NCBI GenBank assembly: GCA_029775915.1
Contig: JARVKA010000002.1
Coordinates: 1 to 64,000 of the forward strand
Direction of reading: 5' to 3'
Origin: Nitrososphaeria archaeon
GTDB taxonomy: Archaea; Thermoproteota; Nitrososphaeria; Nitrososphaerales; JANXEG01
Length of the DNA stretch: 64,000 bases
The position numbers and the translations under genes are program-made. Below are positions 34,993 to 39,776 of this stretch, piece by piece (within the stretch, counting starts at the first letter, position 1; every line of letters begins with the position of its first letter). Below the pieces are notes generated by a model, which did no database searches, was not told where the DNA came from, and saw only the letters and a list, made by a program, of their open reading frames with translations.

Positions 34993-35006
34993 CGAAATAA
35001 AATAAG

Positions 35007-35098
35007 TGCGGTCGCCGGGATTTGAACCCGGGTCGTCAGCTTGGAGGGCTTACACGCCGATTGGCTTGATGTCCTAGACCAGGCTAGACGACGACCGC
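35007..35098 (-). tRNA. tRNA-Gly(TCC) with one non-canonical intron
   Basis: The acceptor GCGGTCG pairs with CGACCGC, the T arm is CCGGG-TTCAAAT-CCCGG, the D stem is GTCT with GGAC. The anticodon stem TCAGC with GCTGA forms only when a 17-nt insert at 35050-35066 between positions 29 and 30 is removed. The loop is CCTCCAA, so anticodon TCC is preceded by C33 rather than the near-universal T33. The spliced length is 75 nt. CCA is not encoded. Confidence 0.85.
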
Positions 35099-37176: not shown

Positions 37177-37452
37177 TTGTCTGAAGAAGGTGGAGAGCTC
37201 TCCCGTATTTATGTAATACCTTTAAGAAAGGCTTGGTTAGCTCCTAAGCATAGAAGAGCGAAAAGAGCGATTAATTTAATTAGAGAGTTTGCAGAGAGGC
37301 ATATGAAAAGTTCTGATATAAAGATTGATACATCTCTTAATGAGTTGATTTGGAGTAAAGGTATTGAGAATCCGCCTAGAAAGATTGCAGTAAAAATGGT
37401 TAAGGATAAAGATGGAGTAGTTACCGTAAGTTTACCTTCTGAGAAGACTTGA
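37177..37452 (+). CDS. rpl31e: Ribosomal protein L31e
   Basis: The 91-residue protein starts at TTG 37177 after GGGTGAG. It has RIYVIPLRKAWLAPKHRRAKRAINLIREFAERHMK, then IDTSLNELIWSKGIENPPRKIAVK, diagnostic of L31e. In many archaea translation factor aIF6 follows; here a tRNA-Arg and a decayed region come instead. Confidence 0.95.
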   Translation: MSEEGGELSRIYVIPLRKAWLAPKHRRAKRAINLIREFAERHMKSSDIKIDTSLNELIWSKGIENPPRKIAVKMVKDKDGVVTVSLPSEKT

Positions 37453-37612: not shown

Positions 37613-37705
37613 GGGCCCGTAGCCTAGTATGGATAGGGCGTCGAAATTAAATATTGCGCAAGCCTTCGGAGCCGAAGGTCGTGGGTTCAAATCCCACCGG
37701 GCCCG
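37613..37705 (+). tRNA. tRNA-Arg(TCG) with one non-canonical intron
   Basis: The acceptor GGGCCCG pairs with CGGGCCC, the T arm is GTGGG-TTCAAAT-CCCAC. The anticodon arm TCGGC-CTTCGGA-GCCGA forms after removing an 18-nt insert at 37644-37661 between positions 29 and 30. The spliced length is 75 nt. CCA is encoded at 37706-37708. No canonical 37/38 intron. Confidence 0.88.
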
Positions 37706-37708
37706 CCA

Positions 37709-38084
37709 TTTCATAATTAAAGAATAGAAAATTTTAATTATTTTTAGAATTTAGAATCAAGCCTTTAATTATTCTTATCGCCTACTTTAACTTTCATAAC
37801 TCTGAAAATTTAGCCATTCTCTAACCTAATGAATTAATCATTTATCACAACTATATCACGAGGAAGCTCGATGCATCTACAGAGTAAAAGAGGATACTCA
37901 AATTGTAGAGAATCAATATTTTAATTATGAAATAAGGAAATAAATTTTGAGTTTATAACGAGGGAAAAATTTCAAAATTAATCCCTAATTCATATAAGAA
38001 AAATTACCAGAGATTATAAAGAGCATAGATTTCTTTCATTAAAAGAAAATTGTTCAAGCTTATTATCCATTTACATATTTCAAA
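37709..38084. other. Gene-free stretch before the topoisomerase remnant
   Basis: No open frame of note and no repeat recognised. It may hold further, unrecognisable parts of the decayed topoisomerase gene, since the recognisable part at 38085-38355 is only the C-terminal end. Confidence 0.4.
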
Positions 38085-38355
38085 ATGGTTTTAATGATTA
38101 AAGAAAGGGGAATAGGAAGACCATCTACTTACGCTAAAATTTTAAAAAATATGTGAACGGAATTAACAAAAAGCTTATTCCAACTTGCTCGGTTTTAGGG
38201 TTTGCAGCTTTTTGAAGGAAATATATGGAAAATACTCAAATGAAAATTAAAAAAAATAGATAGGATTGAAAAAATGAGGTAAAAGCTCAGAGGTGATGAA
38301 AGAGTTTTATAAGGAAGTTAAAGAAATGATGGAGAGTGTTAGAAAATATAAGTGA
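38085..38355 (+). pseudogene. Type IA topoisomerase (possibly reverse gyrase) C-terminal remnant
   Basis: Fragments in different frames appear in family order. MVLMI is followed, one frame over, by KERGIGRPSTYAKILKNM (to stop 38155-38157). INKKLIPT and LGFAA come next in a shifted frame. Then GKSSEVMKEFYKEVKEMM runs to the TGA at 38353-38355. The IGRPSTYA and KLIPT motifs are diagnostic of type IA topoisomerases, and the EFYKEV tail resembles reverse gyrase C-termini. At least three frameshifts and stops make it non-functional. Bacterial-type TopA is an alternative origin. Confidence 0.65.
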
Positions 38356-38537
38356 AGTTTAAAAGCGATCTTTTTCAAAAATTATTAATTAGCAAAGGTT
38401 CAGCGATAAGTTGTTAAGAGATAAGTAATAAGGTTGCACTATAAATAGATAAAAATGGAAAATTAAGGAGAAAATCAAGACATTTAACATCCATAAATAT
38501 GAAAAAGTTTATCTACTTCATAAATTTTATATAAATT

Positions 38538-39776
38538 ATGTCTTCTGTGCCTTCTGAAAAAGTTGATAGACGTGCATATTTAAAGTATCTCGCATCATTC
38601 ATTGTTGGTGCAGTAATATTTGGTGGCGGTATAGCTGCATATTATTCATCATTACCACCGAGAAAAGAAGTTGTAACAGAAACTGTGAAAACAACAGTAA
38701 CAGGGCCTACTGTAACACAAACCATTACTGTAACAGTTACACAAACTCCTACACCAACATTCACACCACCCCCTAAGCCAGCGAAAATGACATGGAATGC
38801 TAATACATCAGAACCAGGAACTGTAGGCTATATAGCAATAGCTGCAATAGCAGATTTAGTAACAAAAACTTATCCAGATGTATTAGAAGTTCTTCCAATA
38901 TCGGTTGGAGGCGCAACAACTACAGTTAAGGTTTGGGATAGAGGCGAAGGCCATAGTTGTTACAATACATTGCAACATCTTTGGCAAGTGAAGGTTGGAG
39001 CAGGACCCTTTGATCCAGCACAATATAAGATGAAAAGGGCGAATGAATTTTGGCAAGTCTTATGGATGTATCCTTTAATATACTTTGGTATGATTAGAGC
39101 TGCAGATGCTGGTAAGATAAAATCTTGGAGTGATTTTGCTGGAAGAGCGGTATTTCCAACACCACCCGGTTATGGGAGTCATGAAGTATTTAGAGCGGTA
39201 TTTGGTAAAGATGGATTGAATATTATTGATAAAATGGATTTAAAAAGTATGAGTGTTGAAGCAGCTGCAGATAATTTAAAAATGGGTGTAATGGATGTAT
39301 GTTGGGCTTATTGTGATCCTGGAGCTTTAGCAAAATGGTGCATGGATGTAGATGTTAGAGTAGGAGTTGCTGTAGTTCCACCGACTGAAGAGGAATTGAA
39401 AAAAGCTTTAGCAGCTGGTCCATGGTTAAGTAAATATAAAGTGGATCCAAGTACTTTATTCACAAGCCCCCTCGCTAAAGCAACAAAACCATTTGATACT
39501 GTGGCGATGCCATTCGGTATAGCTGCAGGTAAAGATGTTAGTGATGCTCATGTGTATTATTTTGTAAAAGCAGTATTTGAGAAGAAGGAGGAGCTTGGTA
39601 AGGTAGTCGCCACATTTACTGACTTTGCTAAAAGAGGTCTTGAATGGAATATTGAGGTCTTTAAGGATCAATCCAAGCCACCTATATCCACACCTATTCA
39701 TCCTGGAGTAGCTTTATACTTAAGAGAGAAGGGATATAATCCAGAAGCTCTTGGGATACTCGTAGGGAAGAGATAG
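38538..39776 (+). CDS. TRAP transporter solute receptor, TAXI family
   Basis: The 412-residue protein has an N-terminal anchor with a Tat-like twin arginine (DRRAYLKYLASF, helix 17-37), a Thr/Pro/Val-rich linker (about 42-80) and a substrate-binding domain (GTVGYIAIAAIADLVTKTYP, NEFWQVLWMYPLIYFGMI, CWAYCDPGALAKWCM). TAXI receptors capture dicarboxylates or other organic acids outside the cell and hand them to the fused TRAP permease. No AXA cleavage site is clear, so it is probably membrane-tethered. The permease gene starts 6 bases after its stop. Confidence 0.9.
   Translation: MSSVPSEKVDRRAYLKYLASFIVGAVIFGGGIAAYYSSLPPRKEVVTETVKTTVTGPTVTQTITVTVTQTPTPTFTPPPKPAKMTWNANTSEPGTVGYIAIAAIADLVTKTYPDVLEVLPISVGGATTTVKVWDRGEGHSCYNTLQHLWQVKVGAGPFDPAQYKMKRANEFWQVLWMYPLIYFGMIRAADAGKIKSWSDFAGRAVFPTPPGYGSHEVFRAVFGKDGLNIIDKMDLKSMSVEAAADNLKMGVMDVCWAYCDPGALAKWCMDVDVRVGVAVVPPTEEELKKALAAGPWLSKYKVDPSTLFTSPLAKATKPFDTVAMPFGIAAGKDVSDAHVYYFVKAVFEKKEELGKVVATFTDFAKRGLEWNIEVFKDQSKPPISTPIHPGVALYLREKGYNPEALGILVGKR

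Follow-up and report, generated by a model that had tools for sequence, protein, structure and literature searches.

A decayed reverse gyrase fragment beside a tRNA gene in a Nitrososphaeria genome that encodes an intact reverse gyrase, probably of another lineage

The window analyzed here is a stretch of 64,000 nucleotides at the start of contig JARVKA010000002.1 (C3) from a Nitrososphaeria archaeon (assembly GCA_029775915.1), a member of a family of the order Nitrososphaerales that appears to be deep, thermophilic and non-ammonia-oxidising. Between an intact ribosomal protein gene and an intact gene for a solute-binding protein lies a tRNA gene, followed by a stretch in which we recognise the 3' end of a reverse gyrase gene in a decayed state, with a firm extent of 38043-38352 on the + strand. 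The features of the locus are given below; L088 and L100 are the reverse gyrases of Aenigmatarchaeota Bin S16 and Parcubacteria GBS-2.

37177-37452, + strand: ribosomal protein L31e, intact; the synteny anchor, 82-84% identical in the congener G001
37613-37708, + strand: tRNA gene directly upstream, not part of the pseudogene; Phe according to ARAGORN, tRNA-Arg(UCG) by reading, its anticodon stem carrying an 18-nt intron
37837-38042, + strand: possible more-decayed upstream part; weak match to reverse gyrase from about RFIASQMK to KEFEFINR
38043-38150, + strand: segment 1, KKIVQAYYPFTYFKMVLMIKERGIGRPSTYAKILKN; aligns to residues 1061-1096 of L088 and to L100; GRPSTYA motif; TIGR01054 E 7e-8
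38147-38185, + strand: segment 2, frame changed, KYVNGINKKLIPT, with about 4-5 residues absent ahead of it; frameshift alignment to L088, L100 and L172
38188-38247, + strand: segment 3, frame changed, LGFRVCSFLKEIYGKYSNEN, then TAA; from frameshift alignment and translation
38244-38279, + strand: segment 4, frame changed, KLKKIDRIEKMR, ending at TAA; runs collinearly with the EMDxIE part of reverse gyrases
38278-38352, + strand: segment 5, frame changed, GKSSEVMKEFYKEVKEMMESVRKYK, then TGA (38353-38355); matches the very C-terminal end of reverse gyrases
38352-38387, + strand: possible C-terminal extension, VKFKSDLFQKLL, to be compared with VKYPSLFDELI at the end of L088; weak
38538-39776, + strand: TAXI-type solute-binding protein, intact, 412 aa, named by inference from its sequence; downstream boundary

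The intron of the tRNA gene lies at a non-canonical place (tcg / aaattaaatattgcgcaa / gccttcgga), and the congener's tRNA (L038, 1058-1151) has the same layout with another intron sequence. Two more tRNA genes, at 35006-35098 of the window and at 6656-6742 of L040, have anticodons that are unreadable in ARAGORN and probably also carry introns.

Read end to end, the fragment is KKIVQAYYPFTYFKMVLMIKERGIGRPSTYAKILKN / KYVNGINKKLIPT / LGFRVCSFLKEIYGKYSNEN / KLKKIDRIEKMR / GKSSEVMKEFYKEVKEMMESVRKYK, a composite peptide assembled by homology that corresponds to the last ~115 residues of the protein. Its five segments lie in five frames and contain no internal stop; about five residues are lost at two of the four frame changes. 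A first-pass annotation had noticed three motifs here, in the correct order and scattered over frames, and translation bears this out: the frame that starts at 38043 holds KERGIGRPSTYAKI, that of 38147-38185 holds KKLIPT, and that of 38278-38352, closed by the TGA, holds EFYKEVKEMM. Segments 3 and 4 were not part of that description and bridge the gaps between the motifs. GC content falls to 25-29% in this stretch, compared to 34-41% in the neighbouring genes, which fits the expectation for decaying DNA.

Beyond the firm extent, the alignment to reverse gyrase continues collinearly and weakly in both directions. The upstream extension to 37837 (reverse gyrase residue 993) is equalled by 3 of 200 shuffles with L088 and by 68 of 200 with L100; for the tail to 38387, which reaches the last residue of L088, the counts are 10 and 200 of 200. 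A search of the upstream sequence on its own gave no significant match to further reverse gyrase, and the anchored alignment is only suggestive. These extensions may possibly belong to the fragment.

The homology of the fragment to the C-terminal topoisomerase domain is beyond chance. In a whole-genome scan, the reverse gyrase profile TIGR01054 matched C3:38040-38153 unprompted (E 7e-8). In a purpose-written frameshift-tolerant alignment, with 200 dinucleotide shuffles as the null, 38043-38337 scored 169 against L088, while its shuffles had a mean of 34, a standard deviation of 5 and a maximum of 53; across the best relatives, scores of 169-170 stand against shuffle maxima of 53-63. Like reverse gyrases in general (TIGR01054; Archaeoglobus 1gku, Thermotoga 4ddt), the fragment has the GRPSTYA motif and a C-terminal topoisomerase part that is collinear to the C-terminus. 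A local LIIYH that resembles an active site amounts to five residues with E ~20-40 and was dismissed.

The fragment is the remnant of a type IA topoisomerase, and specifically of a reverse gyrase, which the first-pass annotation had offered only as a possibility. Reverse gyrase is also closer to it than topoisomerase III is. Among the NCBIfam profiles, that of reverse gyrase (TIGR01054, E 2.3e-20, 71.8 bits) fits better than that of bacterial TopA (topA_bact, E 3e-18, 66.2 bits). This lead of 5.6 bits is modest and leaves some room for an origin from a bacterial-type TopA or from that of a phage or plasmid, a reading we consider very improbable. Matches in the PDB favour reverse gyrase by six orders of magnitude (3e-14, against 2e-8 for the first TopA), full-length reverse gyrases are the best single relatives, and the end of the fragment coincides with the end of reverse gyrase. 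The phage and plasmid matches are indeed TopA genes, and they are much weaker (best E ~2e-6; 50-51 bits, against 83 for reverse gyrase). A search of viral contigs, in which few patterns were used, found no reverse gyrase.

What is left of the gene appears, on its sequence, to be a pseudogene that no longer has a coding function. Unlike intact reverse gyrases, it no longer has the helicase domain or the region of the catalytic tyrosine, and most of the gene is lost. No sequence of an N-terminal helicase-like domain is found upstream, where the tRNA gene starts 430 bp before the firm fragment; the catalytic tyrosine motif (TYHRT) falls outside the fragment; and no open reading frame spans the five frames. 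With neither a helicase domain nor an active site, and with broken frames, it shows no detectable function as a gene. Frameshifts are a typical error of long reads, and one could envision an intact gene split by sequencing errors. The chance of this is close to nil: at least four frame changes and small deletions fall within 310 bp, all neighbouring genes are open, and the upstream ~1000 codons are gone or unrecognisable. With the neighbours unbroken and ~1000 residues absent or unrecognisable, correction of sequencing errors cannot restore a gene.

Reverse gyrase is a heat-adaptation enzyme and a marker of hyperthermophily, and it is used to infer ancestral growth temperatures. The first-pass annotation had proposed that this lineage either lost the marker recently or carries a decayed second copy. 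Searching the rest of the genome, which also has a topoisomerase III-like gene, revealed an intact, unbroken reverse gyrase of 1210 aa on another contig (C2:134166-137747) that matches TIGR01054 from 1 to 1172 with 1289 bits. The lineage has therefore not lost reverse gyrase; recent loss falls away as an explanation, and the fragment is a decayed second copy. The C2 gene groups with genes of Bathyarchaeota JZ_bin_7 and Methanomethylicia. It is up to ~77% identical to the Bathyarchaeota genes (L053 and L214; JZ_bin_7, family f25) and 46% identical to the congener's, and this far greater closeness to Bathyarchaeota suggests that it was itself acquired horizontally and recently.

The fragment and the C2 gene belong to one family and are only 35% identical. 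Identity of the fragment reaches 44-47% to the lineage of L088 and L100 and 45% to some other lineages. Its nearest relatives are from Parcubacteria GBS-2 (83.5 bits), Aenigmatarchaeota Bin S16 (79.9) and SZUA-1535 (77.2), with Thermoproteota next at 76.5 bits and below. Two trees, of 94 and 44 rows, join it to GBS-2, Bin S16, Thermoprotei AUK086 and two more Thermoproteota families in one small clade (SH-aLRT 96-98), with SZUA-1535 outside; the placement is fragile because it rests on ~107 informative residues on a long branch (~1.0). A signature residue agrees with this clade. In the (P/L)(F/Y)(T/S)YS motif ahead of GRPSTYA, the fragment and all five clade members have Tyr (TYS), where Gln or Glu (TQG/TEG) is usual in reverse gyrases; outside the clade, Tyr occurs in one of 129 compared sequences (L018), which is an ordinary type IA topoisomerase and not a reverse gyrase. 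With L088 and L100 the fragment shares the PFTYS/PYSYS signature, GRPSTYAKIL and possibly the C-terminal tail, but these are intact genes of 1185-1187 aa to which the fragment is only 44-47% identical. The two intact genes, one from an Aenigmatarchaeote and the other from a Parcubacteria bacterium, share 77% identity over 1187 residues, suggesting either that one domain recently received the gene from the other or that a contig was misbinned.

Alternatively, the fragment could have arisen by tandem or dispersed duplication of the genome's own intact gene and then decayed, given that both sit in one genome. Joining the two costs 9.5 log units in the 94-row tree and is not rejected by the AU test (p-AU 0.345); in the 44-row tree it costs 17.3 and is rejected (p-AU 0.023), as is joining the fragment to the clade of the congener's gene (p-AU 0.002). 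The p-values are uncorrected for the number of tests, and the 44 rows were picked after the first tree. Decay by itself would cut identity to every lineage equally, whereas the fragment is 35% identical to its own genome's gene and 44-47% to the Aenigmatarchaeota/Parcubacteria lineage. Moreover, it lacks the PFIQGE motif of the C2 gene and has the TY of the other clade. We thus regard duplication as improbable. The fragment probably, though not provably, derives from the reverse gyrase lineage of Aenigmatarchaeota, one Parcubacterium and some Thermoproteota, and the second copy is then probably a second gene of another reverse gyrase lineage.

Synteny was compared between the window genome (G000) and one congener, G001. 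FtsY, S19e and L31e are 83%, 93% and 82% identical between them; their reverse gyrases share 46% identity and belong to separate clades in the trees. In the window genome, the C2 gene is flanked by FtsY and a small HTH gene. The same order of genes (GlmM, eIF6, prefoldin, FtsY, HTH, CysK) is found in G001, with a short spacer of ~200 bp and no reverse gyrase. The reverse gyrase of G001 lies upstream of an HTH-KaiC pair; at the orthologous pair of the window genome (C9, L208) there is an unrelated 1139-aa ORF and no reverse gyrase. At the third site, G001 has a glycerol-1-phosphate dehydrogenase gene after L31e and the tRNA, and the fragment is absent. Reverse gyrase thus occupies three sites, in three sequence lineages, in two genomes. 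The other genera compared (G013, G012 and G034) have FtsY followed by OTC without a reverse gyrase, which favours gain at the FtsY site, and with two genomes the direction of gain or loss at each of the three sites is not proven. Overall, the comparison argues for repeated gain and loss of reverse gyrase within one genus.

Across the order, substantial reverse gyrase genes are present in 4 of 41 genomes: the window genome, G034, G001 and G025, with the gene of G001 truncated by a contig end and that of G025 by contig ends. The S19e-PDCD5-L31e-eIF6-prefoldin-FtsY cluster forms an unbroken run in other families of the order (G034, G010) and is split between L31e and eIF6 in the host genus (C3/C2 in G000, C64/C48 in G001). 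Elsewhere in the class, the reverse gyrase of G090 is split into two overlapping pieces (L145 and L148, on contig C34), the N-terminal one with two in-frame stops; this may be another instance of decay, or a frameshift.

We consider it likely that a reverse gyrase of foreign lineage, acquired horizontally beside the tRNA gene, became redundant or was replaced and then decayed. The gene would have entered from the lineage of Aenigmatarchaeota, one Parcubacterium and some Thermoproteota and landed beside the tRNA gene. There, a reverse gyrase of another lineage may have made it redundant or taken its place, and it would then have eroded through 5' loss and small insertions and deletions to leave the lesions now seen. 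The fragment, its lesions, the intact second gene and the different sites in the congener are observed directly; the foreign lineage is probable, and we infer the transfer, the redundancy and the order of these events. tRNA genes are common landing places for integrating elements. Such a route is a guess for this fragment because we detected neither a repeated tRNA end nor any trace of an integrase: within the window, we found no second copy of this tRNA's 3' end, no informative repeats and no Rfam match that would mark an integrated element, and neither an integration scar nor donor flanking genes turned up.

The fragment could instead be an ancestral, vertically inherited reverse gyrase whose place was taken by a gene newly acquired at the FtsY site. 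One study infers reverse gyrase for deep Nitrososphaeria ancestors (PMC10833072), and the site of the C2 gene is empty in the congener. We judge this history to be unlikely, if a good deal less so than duplication, since the search of the order turned up neither an intact gene of the fragment's lineage nor any reverse gyrase at the L31e-tRNA site, and so few genomes (4 of 41) have a reverse gyrase at all. Horizontal acquisition followed by decay is the account we prefer.

Horizontal transfer of reverse gyrase is already known. Published work describes frequent transfer for Bathyarchaeia (PMC8407382), for Aenigmarchaeota, where the gene is said to come from Bathyarchaeota (PMC8407114), and for Nitrososphaeria (PMC10833072); a global study describes mainly vertical descent in Archaea (PMC6878951). 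Our case is like the first three in involving frequent transfer of reverse gyrase among thermophiles. It differs in the kind of evidence: transfer was inferred there from trees, and the available text of these papers contains no pseudogene and no empty-site comparison. Among open-licence papers, we found none on reverse gyrase and pseudogenes that bears on such a case. The fragment is a small, concrete case of reverse gyrase turnover, both real and explained.

A dead copy in the same genome as a live copy of another lineage, together with empty sites in a congener, provides direct genomic evidence of turnover that goes beyond tree discordance. Knowledge of the reverse gyrase enzyme itself is unchanged by the fragment. 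If the donor was an episymbiont, the fragment would also document the passage of a gene from a symbiont into a possible host. More tentatively, and at rather less than even confidence, we propose that reverse gyrase is interchangeable in this thermophilic genus: the two genomes would hold three unrelated lineages of the gene, each at its own site, and one of these, now decayed, would have been received from episymbiotic Aenigmatarchaeota or Parcubacteria or be common to them and the genus. The presence or absence of reverse gyrase would hence be a poor record of ancestral temperature in such clades.
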